Part shown: piece by piece, positions 33,581 through 45,921 of the stretch
Numbering within the stretch: the first letter of the stretch is position 1
How the letters are laid out: every line of letters begins with the position of its first letter
Assembly: GCA_012729555.1 (NCBI GenBank)
Contig: JAAYCX010000040.1
Location: forward strand, 1-64,000
DNA length: 64,000 nt
From: Acidobacteriota bacterium
Lineage (GTDB): Bacteria; Acidobacteriota; UBA6911
Direction: 5' to 3'
Position numbers and translations under genes: made by a program
The notes under the pieces: model-generated
Told to the model about the DNA's origin: nothing
The model's database searches: none
Seen by the model: only the letters and a program-made list of their open reading frames with translations

Positions 33581-34528
33581 TCAAATGCTTTTAGATGCGG
33601 CCCGTGCCCCCAAACGCGGAATCGGGACGCGGTCCAGGTCGGCGAGCACCGTCACGTCGGGAAAGACGCTCCGGGCCTCCTCCAGGTGCTCCCCCGCATC
33701 GGGGTACCGCTGGGAGAAATGGCCCAGGGCCAGCCGCCGCGCCCCGGCCTCCCTGGCTGTCCGCGCGGCGTCGGCCGCCGTCGAATGCCCGTACCGGTCC
33801 GCCAGCTCCCGGTGAGCGGACAGGAAAGTGGCCTCCATGAGGAGCAGGTCGGCCCCCCGGGCCAGTTCCAGCGCCGTCCGGCAGGGGCGCGTGTCCATGA
33901 CGAAGGCGAACACGTTGCCGGGCCTCGGCCCGCTCACCTCCTCGAGGCGGACAATGCCCCCCGGCGTCCGCACGCTCCCCCGGCGCTCGAGCTCCCCCAC
34001 CATCGGTCCGCTCACCCCCGCCGCCGCCAGTCTTTCGGGCAGGAAGCGCCGCCCCTCCGGCTCCTCGATCCGGAAGCCCAGGGCGGGGACCGAGTGGTCG
34101 AGTTCCCCCGCCCGCAGCGACCAGTCTTCCGTGCGCCAGACCTCGGCCGTTTCCCCCGCGGCGAGCGCGACCGGGTGCAGGATCATGTCCACCGAAGACT
34201 TGTAGATTGCGGCGCGGCAGAGCGCGTCCATGTACTCCTGCCCGCTCGCAGGGTAAAAGAGGTGCACGGGGTGGCGGCAGGACTCGAGCGACAGCCGCTG
34301 CACGATTCCCGGGAGCCCCAGGCAATGGTCCCCGTGAAAGTGGGAGATGCAGATGGCGCCGACAACCCCGGCCGGCACTCCCGCCAGCGTCATCTGCCTC
34401 TGGGCCCCCTCCCCCGGATCGAACAGAATGCCCGTACCCTCCCAGCGGACGAGGTAGGCGTTGTGGCTCCTCTCCCTCGTGGGGACCTGGCTGCTGGTGC
34501 CCAGCGCTATCAATTCCCTGCCGCTCAT
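33581..34528 (-). CDS. rnz: Ribonuclease Z
   Basis: The 315-residue metallo-beta-lactamase-fold nuclease has the zinc motif HFHGDHCLGLPG near residue 65, ALGTSSQVPTRERSHNAYLV at the N-terminus and later ligands in AFVMDTRP and LALGHFSQRY. RNase Z cuts tRNA precursors 3' of the discriminator base. The size and the PTRERSHN/exosite-like middle region fit the short, homodimeric bacterial form. It starts just upstream of lepB on the same strand. Confidence 0.92.
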   Translation of the reverse strand: MSGRELIALGTSSQVPTRERSHNAYLVRWEGTGILFDPGEGAQRQMTLAGVPAGVVGAICISHFHGDHCLGLPGIVQRLSLESCRHPVHLFYPASGQEYMDALCRAAIYKSSVDMILHPVALAAGETAEVWRTEDWSLRAGELDHSVPALGFRIEEPEGRRFLPERLAAAGVSGPMVGELERRGSVRTPGGIVRLEEVSGPRPGNVFAFVMDTRPCRTALELARGADLLLMEATFLSAHRELADRYGHSTAADAARTAREAGARRLALGHFSQRYPDAGEHLEEARSVFPDVTVLADLDRVPIPRLGARAASKSI

Positions 34529-34616
34529 ATCCCCTCATTATGCCCTTTCACCCCTTCGCTTTCAGCCGTTCTTTTCACGGCTGCCCCCCGGCCCCGATTA
34601 TTTTCCCCGGGGATCA

Positions 34617-34645
34617 TTGGCATTTGACCCGGGGGTTGCTATAAT
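34617..34645 (+). promoter_or_regulatory. Near-consensus sigma-70 promoter for the radical SAM operon
   Basis: TTGGCA, a 17-nt spacer and a perfect TATAAT are followed by a leader of about 50 nt before the GTG at 34704. It is the best promoter-like match in the window and predicts strong housekeeping expression. Confidence 0.8.
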
Positions 34646-34703
34646 TGCCCGTTTTCCGTTGCAGGGTCGTTTCCATTCGGGGCATTCAGGAACAGGACTA
34701 TCC

Positions 34704-36050
34704 GTGGACATCGTCGTACTCAGCGCCAGCAGACACAAGAACTGTACCCTCAAGGACGTCGCCGGGGGATTCGGAACCGTTTTCACCGTGGGGGATTCCC
34801 CATTCGCACGGCTGCTGGAAATCGCCAAGCGCCGGATCGCGGCGATCCCCAACATCACCCTCGCCTACCTCGACTCCCTGCTGACCTCGCACGGGGCCTC
34901 CGTCCGCATCCTCGACGTCCGGCGCGCCGACCAGCTCGTCCCGGCCGACCTCTACCTCGTCTCCTCCTCGATCGTCGACTGCAATTTCGAGCGCGAACTC
35001 GGCTGGGAGGCCAGGAGCCGCTTCGGCGCCCGCGTCGGCTATTTCGGGACCTTCGCCTCGGCCGTGCCCGATTTCTACTCCGAAAGCGCCGATTTCGTCC
35101 TGCGGGGGGAGATCGAGAACATGGCCCCGGCCCTGGCCCGCGGGGACATCCCCTCCGGCGTGGTGGACGCCGGTTTTGTCGGCGACCTGGACGCCCTCCC
35201 GTTCCCGAGCTGGGACCAGTTCGATATCCAGCGCTTCCGGTACCAGATCGTCACGGGCCGGGGCATCACCCTCCCCATGCTCGGAAGCCGGGGATGCCCC
35301 TATACCTGCAACTACTGCCCCTACCGGGTCAACTCGAAATACCGCGTCCGCACCCCCGAGAGCGTCGTCGACGAGATCGACTACCTGCACCGGAAATACA
35401 GCATCCACGGCATCTCCTTCCGCGACCCCAACATGACCTTCAGCCGCAGCCGCGCACGGCGGTTCGCCGATCTCCTGCTCCGCCACAACCTCGATATCCG
35501 CTGGGGGATGGAGGCGCGCACCGACCGGCTGGACCCCGAACTCATCGGGCTCCTTTACCGCTCGGGGCTGCGCAGCGTCGAGGTGGGGGTGGAATCCTCC
35601 GACCCGGACACCCTGCGGGCCAGCCACCGCAAGGCCATCGCGCGCGAGCAGCAGGAGCGCGTCATCGAGTGCTGCCACCGGCTGGGGATCCGCGTCATCG
35701 CCAATTACACCTTCGGTCTCCCCGACGACACGGTCGAGGGGATCCGGGACACCATCCGCTACGCCAAGAAGCTGAACACCTTCGCCATCCAGTTCACGGT
35801 CACCACCCCCTACCCCGGCACCCCGTTCTACGACAACGTCAAGGACGATATCTTCGAGCGGGACTGGGAGTGCTTCAACGGGTGGACCAACGTCTTCCGC
35901 CATCCCTCCATCGGGACGGAGGACCTTCACCGGCTCAGGGAATTCGCCTACGTGTCCTATCACCTCCGGCCGCGCTACGTCTGGCGCTTCCTGGAATCGA
36001 CCGTCCTGCACCCGTGGCGCTTCCCCGACCCGCGGCCCGCGGCCGCCTGA
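34704..36050 (+). CDS. Radical SAM protein with B12-binding-like N-terminal domain
   Basis: The 448-residue protein has an N-terminal Rossmann-like domain of about 150 residues, as in B12-binding radical SAM proteins (LTSHGASVRILDVR), but the DxHxxG cobalamin motif is not evident. The radical SAM core begins at GCPYTCNYCPY with C198, C202 and C205, followed by a TIM-barrel (ISFRDPNMTF, EVGVESSDPDTL, IANYTFGLPDD, YPGTPFYD). The substrate is unknown; relatives modify lipids, cofactors or small molecules. The GTG start is placed after a strong promoter. It is followed 6 nt later by a kinase-like gene, so the pair is likely an operon. Confidence 0.85.
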   Translation: MDIVVLSASRHKNCTLKDVAGGFGTVFTVGDSPFARLLEIAKRRIAAIPNITLAYLDSLLTSHGASVRILDVRRADQLVPADLYLVSSSIVDCNFERELGWEARSRFGARVGYFGTFASAVPDFYSESADFVLRGEIENMAPALARGDIPSGVVDAGFVGDLDALPFPSWDQFDIQRFRYQIVTGRGITLPMLGSRGCPYTCNYCPYRVNSKYRVRTPESVVDEIDYLHRKYSIHGISFRDPNMTFSRSRARRFADLLLRHNLDIRWGMEARTDRLDPELIGLLYRSGLRSVEVGVESSDPDTLRASHRKAIAREQQERVIECCHRLGIRVIANYTFGLPDDTVEGIRDTIRYAKKLNTFAIQFTVTTPYPGTPFYDNVKDDIFERDWECFNGWTNVFRHPSIGTEDLHRLREFAYVSYHLRPRYVWRFLESTVLHPWRFPDPRPAAA

Positions 36051-39030: not shown

Positions 39031-40800
39031 ATGAACACCAAGATCCGGACCTCGCTGATCGCGATTTCCATCACGCTCGGCCTCACGCTGCTCAAGTTCC
39101 TTTTCTATTTCCTGTCGGGAAGCATCGCGGTCCTGTCGGAAGCGTGGCACAGCTTCAGCGACATCACCACGTCGGTGCTGGTTCTCTTCGCCCTCTGGAG
39201 GAGTGCGTCCCTGGCCCGGCGCCCCCCCCAGCCCGCCGCCGAAGGCGGGCGGGCCGACGGGCCGGCGCGCCCCCTTGGTTTTTGGCGATTCATGGGCCGG
39301 CTCTTCGGCGAACAGATCGAGAGCACCAGTTCCCTCCTGATCGGCGTCTTCCTCACCTTCATCTCCGTCTCCCTGATCCTCAACGCCTGGTCCACGAAGA
39401 TCGTCCTCATCCAGCGGCCGCTGCTGACCGGGATCCTGTTTTTGATCCTTTCGGCCGGCTCCTATTTTCTTTTCAGGTTTCTTTCGGACGTGGGGCGCGC
39501 CGAGAACTCCGCGGCCCTGATCTCCGACGGGCTGCATTCCAAGGGGGACATGGCATGCTCCTCCCTGGCCGGCCTGTCGCTCATCCTCTACCATTTCGGC
39601 ATCAACATCGACCGCTGGGTGAGCCTCGCCATCGCGCTGCTGATCCTCTCTTTCGGGGTGGAAATCCTCTTCAACGTCTTCGCCCACCTCTACGGGAAGC
39701 GCCGGGACTTCCGGATGCGCTACCGCTTCCTCGAGATCCTGGGCATCGGGTTCGAAAAAGAGACCTATCTCCGCCTCTTCCGGTGGATCGACCGGAAATA
39801 CAGCGTCGACATCCTCAGGTCGACCCTGGTCCGGTACGCCCGCCTGTCGCTCCGGTACTCAGGCTACGCCCTCGCCGGCGCCGCCCTGCTGGCCCTCCTG
39901 TACGACATGCGCTTCCAGCTCGAGATGGACGAGCAGGCCGTCGTCGAACGGTTCGGAAAACCCCGGACGACGGAGCCGCTCGGGCCGGGCCTCCATTTCA
40001 AGCTGCCGCGGCCCATCGACCGGGTCCGGGTGGTCCAGACCGGCCGGATCCAGGAGCTGTTCCTCGGGAACGTGTCCCAGGAGGAAGAGCGGCCCCTGAT
40101 CTGGGGAAACGAGCACGGCGAGGAGGTCCACTTCCTCTCGGGCGACAACAACTTCCTCAACCCCTACATCACCCTCCACTACCGGATCCGGAACCTGTAC
40201 GCCTATTTCTACAACATCGAGAATCCGACGGTGCTGATGGAAAACATCTCCTACAAGATCCTGCAGGATCTCTTCACCGCCAAGCCCTTCTACGACATCG
40301 CCATCACCTACCGCCGGGAAATGGAATCGGCCGTGGCCACCGCCCTGCAGCAGAGACTCGACGCTCTCGATACCGGAATCGAGGTGGTCGCGGTCAACGT
40401 CAAGGACATTCACCCGCCGGTCATGATCTCCGACTCCTTTGAAAACGTGATCGCCTCCTACCAGAAGAAGGAGGAAACGATCAACCTCGCCCTGGAATAC
40501 CGGAACACCGAAATCCCCGCCTCCCGGGGGGAGGCCTACACCAACGTCAGCGACGCCCGGGCCTACGTCCAGGAAGAGGTGCTCAAGTCGCAGGCCGCGG
40601 TGGCCGGCTTCAGGGCGAAGTGGAGCGCCTACCGCAGCCACAAGCCCGTCATCCGCCAGGTGCTCTATTTCACCAGCATCGTGACCGCCCTCGGGGAGCG
40701 GGAAAAGATCCTCGTGGACCCCCGTACCGGGGAGCTGGATCTCTACCTGACTTCGGGGGCCGCCGCCCCCCTTCCCGGACCGGGCGGCACAGAGGAATGA
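39031..40800 (+). CDS. Fusion of a cation diffusion facilitator membrane domain with an HflK-like SPFH domain
   Basis: This 589-residue protein joins two unrelated modules. Residues 1 to about 220 are a CDF transporter core with six membrane segments. The metal site is complete: H40-x3-D44 in helix 2 (AWHSFSD) and H169-x3-D173 in helix 5 (DGLHSKGD), the HxxxD form typical of zinc carriers. No CDF cytoplasmic domain follows; instead a basic linker (about 222-275) leads to a seventh hydrophobic helix (about 276-291) and then an HflK-type SPFH/Band 7 domain (VVERFGKPRTTEPLGPGLHF) to residue 560. An even number of CDF helices would place the linker in the cytoplasm and the SPFH domain in the periplasm, as in HflK. 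The ATG has AAGGCGG upstream. Two further SPFH genes follow. Confidence 0.85.
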   Translation: MNTKIRTSLIAISITLGLTLLKFLFYFLSGSIAVLSEAWHSFSDITTSVLVLFALWRSASLARRPPQPAAEGGRADGPARPLGFWRFMGRLFGEQIESTSSLLIGVFLTFISVSLILNAWSTKIVLIQRPLLTGILFLILSAGSYFLFRFLSDVGRAENSAALISDGLHSKGDMACSSLAGLSLILYHFGINIDRWVSLAIALLILSFGVEILFNVFAHLYGKRRDFRMRYRFLEILGIGFEKETYLRLFRWIDRKYSVDILRSTLVRYARLSLRYSGYALAGAALLALLYDMRFQLEMDEQAVVERFGKPRTTEPLGPGLHFKLPRPIDRVRVVQTGRIQELFLGNVSQEEERPLIWGNEHGEEVHFLSGDNNFLNPYITLHYRIRNLYAYFYNIENPTVLMENISYKILQDLFTAKPFYDIAITYRREMESAVATALQQRLDALDTGIEVVAVNVKDIHPPVMISDSFENVIASYQKKEETINLALEYRNTEIPASRGEAYTNVSDARAYVQEEVLKSQAAVAGFRAKWSAYRSHKPVIRQVLYFTSIVTALGEREKILVDPRTGELDLYLTSGAAAPLPGPGGTEE

Positions 40801-42710: not shown

Positions 42711-43424
42711 CTACCGGTCCCTGGCGGCCAGGGCCGCCTCATAGAAATCGGAACGGATCACGTCCAGGTTGGACCCCTCCATGAGGGCGCGGCAGAGGCG
42801 CGCGTCCCCGTCGACCCAGACGAGCAGCGTCAGGCCGTCCTCGAATTCGATCCGGTAGTTTTTCAGCTCTATCTTTTTTCCGCCGCTCTCGACCATGTCG
42901 GCGTCAAGGGGGAACACCGAAACCCGTTCCACGGCGCCGCCCGGGAGGAGATAGGTCCGGAAGAACTGCTGCCCCCCCTTTCGGAGGTCGTAATGCCGGA
43001 TCCAGTAGTCGAGGGTATGAAAAGCCGTCGGGTTGAGCAGGAGCATGTCGGGCAGAAAGGGGGTCCTGGATTCCCCGGCGCCCCCTCCCGTCCTGAGGAT
43101 CTGCTCCCCTTCCAGTTTCATCTCGTACGAATTGTCCTCGCCGGACTCCTGAGCATAGGAGACGGGAAAACGCCCCTCTTTCGGAATCACCATCCGCGTC
43201 CGGATCACCCGTTTTTCACTCGAATTCGGGGGCGTCATCTCCTGCTCGGACAGGCACACCCTGTTCCCCCTCAGGTCGGTTTTTTCCGATACGACTTCCT
43301 TTCCGACCTGCCGGGTGCCCAGCAGAATGACGTAGGACTGGGAATAACTCTTAAAAAAATTGCACGCATTCACCCCGACCAGGCAGGCCAGGGCAAAAAC
43401 CACCCACAGCATTCGATTCTTCAT
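42711..43424 (-). CDS. Lipoprotein of unknown function
   Basis: The 237-residue product begins MKNRMLWVVFALACLVGVNAC, a lipoprotein signal with Cys 21 as probable acylated residue, so it should be membrane-anchored in the periplasm. The mature part is beta-rich and contains paired repeats of hydrophobic and charged strands (IRTRMVIPKEGRFPVSY, KNYRIEFEDGLTLLVWVDGD). No family is recognised. It faces the SPFH operon from the 3' side (convergent, 33-nt gap). Confidence 0.68.
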   Translation of the reverse strand: MKNRMLWVVFALACLVGVNACNFFKSYSQSYVILLGTRQVGKEVVSEKTDLRGNRVCLSEQEMTPPNSSEKRVIRTRMVIPKEGRFPVSYAQESGEDNSYEMKLEGEQILRTGGGAGESRTPFLPDMLLLNPTAFHTLDYWIRHYDLRKGGQQFFRTYLLPGGAVERVSVFPLDADMVESGGKKIELKNYRIEFEDGLTLLVWVDGDARLCRALMEGSNLDVIRSDFYEAALAARDR

Positions 43425-43429
43425 GTCAC

Positions 43430-43483
43430 AAAAAGCATCGGGGGGAGTCGATATGTCGTCCAAAGCCGACCTCGGCTCCCCCC
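43430..43483 (-). terminator. Probable terminator after the metallophosphatase gene
   Basis: On the minus strand a 7-bp G/C stem (43441-43447 with 43476-43482) enclosing a smaller hairpin is followed after a few bases by TTTTT. It lies between the metallophosphatase and the downstream lipoprotein gene. Confidence 0.5.
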
Positions 43484-43555
43484 GACCTTCTCCGGCAAGG
43501 GGACAGGGCCCCCCTGCTTCAAGTCCCATTCACAAACACCTGACGGGCCGGCCCT

Positions 43556-45580
43556 TTACTTCTTGGGGCCGTTCCCGTTCTTCACCGTGTTTCCGTTGGC
43601 CTTGCCGGGCACGGGCTCGACATCCATGGCCACCGCGAAATCGGCGTTGTAGTTGAGCACGGCCCAGGCCGTCTTCGTGGCCGGGTCCACTCCGTAGGTC
43701 CCGAGGCCGTACTTCGGCTTGTAGGGTCCCACCACGAACTTCGGGGTTCCGCCGAAATTCTCCCTCACCGCGGTGACCCACTCCCCGTCGACGAAGGTGG
43801 CGATACCGATCCCGCCGTATCCGAGCCCGTTCATCCTCTTGAAATCGACCGACATCGAAAGGACGTAGGGGTCGGTCATCCCCCCGGCGCCCAGCTCCGA
43901 CATCCCCCACAGGGAGAAGATGTCGCTCTTGAGGGTGTACGGATCGGGATTGGGCACCCAGCCGGTGTTGACCACCTTGTTGAGCGGCCGCGGCGCGCTC
44001 AGGACGACATCGTCGCTCGGGTCGTCCGGGGTGTCGTTGTCGTCGATCGATTCCGGAGTGGAGTCGGTGCTGGTGCTGTTGTTCTTGCCCGCGAGGATCC
44101 GCGCCCTGGTCTTTCCGAAGGTGTCCTCGACCGCGGCATAGGAGCCGCCCTGGGCGACCAGGAACTGCCGCCCGTTGGTGCTGTATCCGTAGCTTTCCTT
44201 CTCGATGAAATCCAGGGGCGGCAGGTAGAGCTTGCCGTTGATGGAATCATCTCCATCAGGATATTCTTCGTTATCCTGGTAGTCGTTGACGCGGTCGCCA
44301 TAGTAGGTGGCCGTCACGCGCGGGCCGTCGATCTTGTAGACATAGTACCCCACGTTGAAAAGCTCCTGGGAAATCTGGGTTTCCCGGGGTTTCGCCCCGC
44401 TGAAGCCGTCCAGCGCGGCGGCGGCGTAGAATTTGGTGCTGCCGGCCATGTGGATGATCTGCTGCACCTGGAACTGGCCGGTGGGGTCGGTCACCAGCGC
44501 GCGGTTGTGCAGGTGGTCATGGCCCGAAAGCATGTAGCGCACCCCGTTTTCCATCAGGCTCTGGTAGAACGGCGTCTGGGTGGCGGCTTTCGAAGCCGGG
44601 GAACTCCCGAAGAAGCCGTCGGCGTGGTTGGCCCCCATCAGGCCGCGGTGGGAAAATACGAAGGCGTGCTCCGTCCCGCGCGTGCTCTTGTCGAGCCGCT
44701 CGGCGATCCACTCCTGCTGCATCCCGGGCCAGTATTCGGTTCCGGAGATGTCGTATTTTGCTTTGGCGATATAGTCGGCAAATGGCCAGTAGTTTTCAAA
44801 TCCGTAAAAATTGGTCGACGCGCTGCCCGAGCTGCTGATGCGGAACCATGTCCCGGGCTCGAATGTGGTCCCGAACTCCTCTTTCCACTGGTACACGATC
44901 CAACCCAGATAGTACCAGGCGTTGTCGTTGGCGCCATATATCGGGTCGACCGATGGATCTGACAGGATTTGACTCTCAATGAATCTCGTGGCTTCCACAT
45001 CGACGATGACGAACCGTGCGCTCCCGGTCTGGTTCGCGTAATCGAAGGAGTAGCTGAGCCCGGCCAGGTCGTCGATGTCGGGGGCGCTGAAATTGGTGGC
45101 GCCGTAGACGGTCCCCATCCCCTGGGTCTGGGGGAAGGCGGCCCTCCATCCCGGAACGTTGACGTTCCAGTCGGGGTCACGGCCATACAGATAGCCATAG
45201 GTTTCGTGGTTGCCGCGCAGGGGGAAGAACCCGATCCCGGCGTCCAGCAGGGGCTGCGCCGCCGCGGCGCGGGCCACAAACCCCTCGTCCCCGGCCCGGT
45301 CGGTCAGATCCCCCACCTGGACGACCAATTTGACTCCGGCGTTGATGAACTGCTGCTGGAAAGTCCGCGCCAGGGCCGCGCTGACGTACTCCGGGTTCTC
45401 GCCCGAAGGGTCTTCGTCCACGGTCCACTGGGTGTCCGCCATCACGCCGAAGGACCAGGGGTTGACCTCGTACCGCCCGCCCCCTTCGGCGAAGACCATC
45501 GTTGTGAAGGAAAGCGTCACAATCATGGCGGCCAGGGCCAGCCGGCCGGCCATGTTGAATCTTTTCCGTGTCCCGTTCAT
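43556..45580 (-). CDS. Secreted calcineurin-like metallophosphoesterase
   Basis: The 674-residue protein starts with a Sec signal (RLALAAMIVTLSFTTMVFAEG) and is probably periplasmic or extracellular. The dimetal phosphoesterase motifs are GVMADTQW, VVQVGDLTDR, LRGNHETYG, FVFSHRG and LSGHDHLHN. The N-terminal half is the catalytic domain. The C-terminal third is beta-rich, with Asp/Ser-rich stretches (STDSTPESIDDNDTPDDPSD) that look like calcium-binding or surface linkers. The substrate could be a phosphomonoester or nucleotide. The AAAGGAGA site 6 nt before the ATG is one of the strongest in the window. It is divergent from a regulator gene with an intervening operator-like array. Confidence 0.85.
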   Translation of the reverse strand: MNGTRKRFNMAGRLALAAMIVTLSFTTMVFAEGGGRYEVNPWSFGVMADTQWTVDEDPSGENPEYVSAALARTFQQQFINAGVKLVVQVGDLTDRAGDEGFVARAAAAQPLLDAGIGFFPLRGNHETYGYLYGRDPDWNVNVPGWRAAFPQTQGMGTVYGATNFSAPDIDDLAGLSYSFDYANQTGSARFVIVDVEATRFIESQILSDPSVDPIYGANDNAWYYLGWIVYQWKEEFGTTFEPGTWFRISSSGSASTNFYGFENYWPFADYIAKAKYDISGTEYWPGMQQEWIAERLDKSTRGTEHAFVFSHRGLMGANHADGFFGSSPASKAATQTPFYQSLMENGVRYMLSGHDHLHNRALVTDPTGQFQVQQIIHMAGSTKFYAAAALDGFSGAKPRETQISQELFNVGYYVYKIDGPRVTATYYGDRVNDYQDNEEYPDGDDSINGKLYLPPLDFIEKESYGYSTNGRQFLVAQGGSYAAVEDTFGKTRARILAGKNNSTSTDSTPESIDDNDTPDDPSDDVVLSAPRPLNKVVNTGWVPNPDPYTLKSDIFSLWGMSELGAGGMTDPYVLSMSVDFKRMNGLGYGGIGIATFVDGEWVTAVRENFGGTPKFVVGPYKPKYGLGTYGVDPATKTAWAVLNYNADFAVAMDVEPVPGKANGNTVKNGNGPKK

Positions 45581-45921
45581 AGAATATCTCCTTTGGTTTG
45601 GCCCCCCGGCCGATAAAGCACAGGGAGGAGCCCCGTGCTGCGGCTCGGTTGCTGCTCGATTGCAGGATGTGGATTCGCCGGGAGAAGCTGTTGGCGGCAA
45701 GGGCGAAAATGATAGACCGCTATCATGGGCTTGAGATACACTGTTCCCTTGCGCCCGAAAAGTGCTGCGCTACCAATAGCCAAGAAGGACGAACCAGCAA
45801 ACTGCACTCAGTACAATGCCTATTTGATAGCATTAGTAGCTTTGATAAATCATGTAACTGTAGTGTAATTTCGGTGTAATTTACATTTTCCTGGCATTGA
45901 TCGATTTCCGGTGTCCGCGCC
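45581..45921. other. AT-rich divergent control region (341 nt)
   Basis: This gap separates the metallophosphatase (minus) from the winged-helix regulator (plus). The half nearest the regulator is AT-rich and holds a promoter and three direct repeats. The half near the phosphatase has its ribosome binding site and no gene I can support. Open frames reaching into it are short and lack starts with ribosome sites. Confidence 0.6.
45842..45882 (+). promoter_or_regulatory. Promoter with three 11-bp direct repeats
   Basis: TGTAACTG at 45853, TGTAATTT at 45864 and TGTAATTT at 45875 repeat with exact 11-bp spacing, one turn of the helix. They overlap a promoter-like pair TTGATA (45842-45847) and TGTAAT (45864-45869) with a 16-nt spacer. 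OmpR-type winged helices commonly bind such tandem sites, and the adjacent gene encodes one. Confidence 0.6.

Follow-up and report, generated by a model that had tools for sequence, protein, structure and literature searches.

What does a metal exporter gain from being joined, within one polypeptide, to an SPFH domain of the kind found in HflK? The purpose of bacterial SPFH complexes has long been an open question, because these assemblies enclose an area of membrane without an obvious client that they all share. We considered a locus that bears on both questions, found in a window (the whole stretch of DNA that was analysed) of 64,000 nucleotides from an acidobacterial draft genome (G000:C40; 3.83 Mb, 98 contigs, 98.9% complete). 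The features discussed below are collected in Table 1.

Table 1. Features of the fusion operon and its neighbours, in positions of the window
Feature	Position	Strand	Evidence
Gene 1, CDF exporter core and HflK-type SPFH domain, 589 aa	39031..40800	+	ORF, profiles, alignment, AlphaFold
CDF six-helix core, residues 1-222	39031..39696	+	Pfam Cation_efflux 9-219; Foldseek to YiiP/ZnT
TM2 metal motif H40xxxD44	39148..39162	+	invariant, 15/15
TM5 metal motif H169xxxD173	39535..39549	+	invariant, 15/15
Linker, residues 223-264, positively charged, at the place of the CDF cytoplasmic domain	39697..39822	+	alignment charge
Seventh membrane helix, residues 265-292	39823..39906	+	AlphaFold helix; equivalent to the helix before SPFH in HflK/HflC
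HflK-type SPFH domain with C-terminal coiled-coil and tail	39907..40800	+	Band_7 297-485; TIGR01933 299-571
Gene 2, HflC-type SPFH protein, 292 aa	40814..41692	+	TIGR01932 hflC 200.1 bits, cut-off 134.4
Gene 3, HflK-type SPFH protein, 326 aa	41697..42677	+	TIGR01933 hflK 204.9 bits, cut-off 159.4
Conserved, exported-looking neighbour without assigned function; system membership uncertain	42711..43529	-	neighbour clustering, five loci
Calcineurin-like metallophosphoesterase, apparent signal peptide, recurrent; membership uncertain	43556..45700	-	PF00149 E 2e-10

Architecture of the fusion and its operon

Gene 1 is the first of three co-directional genes, with 13 bases between genes 1 and 2 and 4 bases between genes 2 and 3, and its reading frame runs uninterrupted through 589 residues. 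The preliminary description had read it as a single CDF-SPFH protein with two HxxxD metal motifs, no normal CDF cytoplasmic domain, and a seventh helix leading into an HflK-type SPFH domain, and each of these readings was borne out. Pfam assigns Cation_efflux to residues 9-219 (E 4e-17; 63 bits, cut-off 26.6) and Band_7 to residues 297-485 (E 6e-19), which makes the second half an SPFH domain. The product scores 89.5 against the NCBIfam CDF superfamily model TIGR01297 (cut-off 82.35) and 150.7 bits over residues 299-571 against the hflK equivalog TIGR01933, slightly below the cut-off of 159.4. The putative ligands H40, D44, H169, and D173 are the same in every one of the 15 aligned fusions. 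The Pfam and NCBIfam profiles detected no CDF C-terminal (ZT_dimer) domain in gene 1; this cytoplasmic domain is not universal within the CDF family.

Between the two halves lies a linker of 53-60 residues (reference positions 217-272) with a net charge of +2 to +9 in all 15 fusions, consistent with the positive-inside rule. Since the topology of both CDF proteins and HflK is known, we infer from this charge that the linker is cytoplasmic and the SPFH part periplasmic, a placement of the gene 1 SPFH domain that the linker and the seventh helix would fit. The AlphaFold model, for which the input was the 15 aligned fusions, has six long helices (3-29, 32-62, 96-121, 130-158, 161-188, and 194-222) followed by a short pair and then by the helix that spans residues 265-292; beyond it come the strands of the SPFH domain and long helices at the C-terminus. 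As a monomer model it is weak, with a mean pLDDT of only 67. In Foldseek searches the SPFH part resembles HflK/C, and the N-terminal part resembles YiiP and ZnT structures.

Gene 2 scores above the HflC equivalog cut-off and gene 3 above that for HflK, although gene 3 falls outside the canonical HflK clade in the SPFH tree despite this score. The window genome encodes FtsH, on contig 15 rather than on the contig of the operon, as well as five further SPFH proteins; no HflK was found in it outside the operon at E 1e-40, although a separate HflK does occur elsewhere in the genus (G113 and G242). Elsewhere in the window, an ORF at 34461-36050 (+) contains the stretch CPYTCNYC, which is similar to the radical SAM cysteine motif.

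The natural comparison is with HflK-HflC of Escherichia coli (SPFH3 family; PDB 7vhp, 7wi3, 9cz1, 9cz2). The likeness lies in genes 2 and 3, which pass the hflC and hflK cut-offs, and in the HflK domain order that follows the last membrane helix of gene 1; the differences are the presence of three SPFH genes instead of two, the metal exporter on gene 1, the separation of the gene-3 proteins from canonical HflK, and the lack of ftsH nearby. With CDF exporters (YiiP/FieF, ZnT, MamB/MamM) gene 1 shares the core of six helices and both HxxxD sites, but it is without their cytoplasmic domain and has the seventh helix and SPFH domain there. The putative pairing of an SPFH assembly with another membrane protein has counterparts in aquaporin-1/stomatin (PDB 9zd2) and in FtsH within HflK/C, structures of both of which are among the Foldseek matches; in those complexes the client is a separate chain, whereas in gene 1 the transporter is covalently attached. 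In the open-access literature we found no description of a CDF, cation efflux, or P-type ATPase protein fused to SPFH, HflK, or band 7, and the words “ATPase,” “fused,” and “transporter” are absent from the text of a 2009 survey of prokaryotic SPFH proteins.

Recurrence of the operon and variety of its exporters

A scan of the collection recovered 15 loci with a CDF-SPFH fusion, and a sample of Thermodesulfobacteriota added five beyond these. Genes 2 and 3 lie directly downstream at every such locus whose contig reaches that far; at L018 the contig ends too early for the three-gene order to be read. Together, the window and 19 further loci with all three genes make up 20 CDF loci from several phyla. 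Identity to the window fusion in other genomes ranges from 30% to 95%, and the closest named relative, L006 (an Acidobacteria metagenome genome), is 95% identical across the whole fusion. Because dN/dS against L006 is 0.20, alike in the CDF half and the SPFH half, both halves are maintained.

The window type is rare and patchy. It occurs in four of the nine genomes of its own genus, among 297 of the phylum, in 8/395 genomes of the phylum of L010, and in 1/398 and 1/294 genomes of the phyla of L017 and L013, respectively, these single positives being the search centres themselves. The genome samples are partial, the loci are mostly metagenome assemblies, and the search, which had the CDF fusion as its starting point, is biased toward relatives of that fusion. 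We found no plasmid record covering 80% of the fusion, and most matches are annotated as ordinary hflK. Of the first 15 fusion genomes recovered, 11 have an additional HflK-like gene on a different contig, and replacement of canonical HflK/C by the operon was on this ground rejected as a general rule.

Other exporters occupy the position of the CDF core in the same three-gene order. P1B heavy-metal ATPases were assigned by sequence to gene 1 at L061, L062, L063, L064, L065, L100, L156, and L178, with CPC and DKTGT motifs present where checked, and such fusions occur in ~15 genomes of the window’s phylum, some of them assigned by frame length. SO_0444 Cu/Zn efflux permeases score above the equivalog cut-off on gene 1 at L161, L169, and L172, and the shorter reads at L167 and L171 resemble these fusions; more CDF lineages with intact HxxxD pairs were found at L096, L099, L101, L170, and L174. 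In the search of the window’s own phylum, all 19 same-contig HflK-like pairs 2-3 kb apart were pump-fused operons (some by frame length only). By sequence assignment, CDF, P1B-ATPase, and SO_0444 are three unrelated transition-metal exporter families joined at the same fusion point, and the curated family models of the latter two contain no SPFH domain.

Because the same operon bears several exporter types, the SPFH set seems tied to metal export and not to one pump, and since the pump varies while the SPFH set does not, the enclosure would be the constant part. With two unrelated metal pumps at the same position in relatives from other phyla, the operon has the look of a modular system, so far undescribed, that would put metal export inside a membrane cage. 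The same observation weakens the earlier proposal that the SPFH part substitutes for the missing metal-sensing domain of the CDF core: P1B-ATPases and SO_0444 permeases carry it too, and, as these pumps never had a CDF sensor domain, the SPFH part would not be specifically a CDF repair.

In a second SPFH tree, all gene-3 proteins fall in one group (82/80), and canonical HflK forms its own (100/99), separate from them. The SPFH domains of P1B-fused gene-1 proteins cluster with four CDF-fused ones (94/88). Deep branches of the tree are weak, and the AU test rejected neither the grouping of every gene-1 SPFH domain in a single clade (p 0.22) nor that of every CDF-fused one (p 0.28). The tree is consistent with one old three-gene scaffold on which pumps have been exchanged.

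Several features of individual operons deserve mention. Two operons can share a genome, as with the CDF operon (L016) and P1B operon (L100) of G307 and the two CDF-type operons (L008, L099) of G299. The gene-2 HflC partner of the P1B fusion has a very His-rich N-terminus at three loci (L061:7174-8145, L062:7053-8078, and L178:6332-7294); this stretch, in a part expected to be cytoplasmic, is possibly a metal-binding tail on the SPFH subunit. The HP signature of P1B-ATPases is usually SEHPL; in the gene-1 proteins of L061, L063, L064, and L100 it reads SEHLL, and HQ occurs in the last pump helix. The SPFH-fused P1B-ATPases are possibly a distinct subfamily.

In a large group from Planctomycetota, the N-terminal multi-helix module of gene 1 has no Pfam match. 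When aligned, seven of these modules match the CDF core of A1 at an hhalign probability of 97.6% (E 4e-12), but their ligands are gone (e.g., WQILGG and WHFLAG vs. WHSFSD in the window). The group also includes L151, L154, L157-L159, L162-L164, and L166, of which L157, L158, and L163 fall with some of the seven compared modules in the SPFH tree (96/80). A P1B-ATPase gene lies directly downstream in 17 of 18 Planctomycetota operons with such a module; in the exception, L162, the available sequence shows no gene 3 and no P1B gene. Of 31 operons in which the fused pump is intact and the sequence continues for 1 kb or more downstream, one (L174) has a separate P1B-ATPase gene. Fisher’s test, computed on 17/17 versus 1/32, gives p ~3e-12, a value that overstates the case because related loci are treated as independent. 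The direction is nonetheless clear: an operon whose fused pump has lost its predicted metal sites still has a metal pump. At L097 (3500-5038, minus strand), a CDF-SPFH fusion of one of the further CDF lineages has lost both metal-site aspartates (HSVQG, HCRIH), with no P1B or other pump gene within 1.3 kb downstream.

Metal-related genes and phosphatases beside the operons

The window operon has no adjoining metal gene. Five of the Thermodesulfobacteriota loci have feoB alongside, accompanied in three cases by feoA and a DtxR-type regulator; NicO and DUF1007 adjoin two, and MntP is near one. That the transported metal is zinc is a guess from the motifs; iron and manganese genes adjoin five related loci. 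At L161, the SO_0444-SPFH gene begins within a ZIP-family gene (PF02535; 655-1548).

Metal-dependent phosphatases, mostly with apparent signal peptides, adjoin several operons. They are found at the window (43556-45700), L007, L008 and L102 (two each, same strand, both sides), and also at L020 and L096; those at L105 and L106 are of the 5'-nucleotidase type and lie ~10 and 77 bases 3' of gene 3, and an alkaline phosphatase adjoins the operon of L017. Against a metallophosphoesterase background of ~2 genes per Mb (from ten genomes, several picked for having the neighbour), the chance of finding one within 5 kb in 4 of ~19 lineages is ~4e-4, a figure from a test picked after the pattern was seen and with a lineage count that is our own. 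The metallophosphoesterase and the conserved exported-looking protein encoded at 42711-43529, for which a Pfam search returned no match, recur jointly beside the window-type operon at L007, L008, and L102, on the strand of the operon at L008 and L102. The exported-looking protein is also encoded at L009.

Possible roles of the SPFH assembly in metal export

Of the readings considered, we lean modestly toward one in which the operon encodes a metal-export complex, with the exporter built structurally into an SPFH assembly that resembles HflK/HflC. That an SPFH assembly organises metal export, as first suggested for this locus, is still the best reading, given the fusion beside two SPFH genes, the linker, and helix 7. 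The CDF core would move a divalent metal from cytoplasm to periplasm (Zn2+ by motif, with Fe2+ or Mn2+ possible), and helix 7 would lead the polypeptide across the membrane, placing its SPFH part on the periplasmic side. Together, the three SPFH proteins would encircle the metal exit in a ring, either closed or open in part, with the exporters in the membrane base of the hetero-oligomer; metal would be released into the periplasmic space thus enclosed or next to it. By confining the pump and its discharge point, the ring may wall off the exported metal within the periplasm or hand it to clients. This arrangement is favoured by the constancy of the gene order at the 20 CDF loci, the invariant ligands, purifying selection on the CDF half, the three exporter families joined at one point, the separate P1B genes where ligands are lost, and the metal genes beside related operons; it is disfavoured by the low pLDDT of the monomer (67), the lack of a metal gene next to the window operon, and the exceptions L097 and L162. 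For E. coli HflK/C, a closed cage and an open, nautilus-like form have both been described, the open ring for the native complex (PMC13220708); a tight seal is therefore not to be taken for granted, and an open ring of that kind would not confine small ions.

A possible, if rather unlikely, alternative is that the SPFH proteins act as a lateral scaffold, clustering the exporter in a membrane patch where it is shielded from or exposed to FtsH; the amount of pump would then be set by membrane quality control, and the ions would be unconfined. E. coli HflK/C encloses FtsH and influences how stable TonB and other proteins are (PMC12005517; PMC13220708), and the window genome does have FtsH. Yet there is no ftsH among the neighbours examined, an extra dedicated set would be needed in the 11 of 15 genomes that have a further HflK-like gene, and scaffolding alone leaves unexplained why only metal exporters were seen fused, in what was a CDF-seeded search.

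More doubtful is a role of the SPFH enclosure as a chamber for metal loading in the periplasm: the built-in exporter would fill it, and secreted metalloenzymes would acquire their metal there, the clients being notably the metallophosphatases encoded beside several operons. Golgi zinc transporters load alkaline phosphatases and would be the eukaryotic counterpart of such a chamber.

We regard as improbable that the CDF core is a former transporter that now serves as a metal-binding membrane sensor or anchor and opens or closes the SPFH ring. The retention of ligand-less CDF-like modules in Planctomycetota suggests that the fold can be useful without transport, and the regulatory CDF domain is absent; but the ligands are invariant in the window type, the P1B-ATPases and SO_0444 pumps at the same position would hardly be sensors, and loss of the ligands coincides with the presence of a separate P1B gene. 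There is next to no chance that an error of sequencing or assembly, or accidental read-through, produced the fusion, and we found nothing in favour of this beyond the draft state of the genome (98 contigs): an artefact or frameshift is ruled out by recurrence in 19 further three-gene loci, in independent assemblies from several phyla at 30-95% identity, and by the dN/dS of 0.20.

Returning to the exporter as a built-in part of an SPFH assembly, the client is here encoded in the gene itself, and three unrelated metal exporters are joined to the same SPFH set. This would offer a direct and testable client and function for an SPFH cage, perhaps the handling of exported metal. The fused construct, in which pump and cage would be inseparable, may be convenient for structural work. 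If true, the arrangement would be a new bacterial means of controlling the destination of exported metal.
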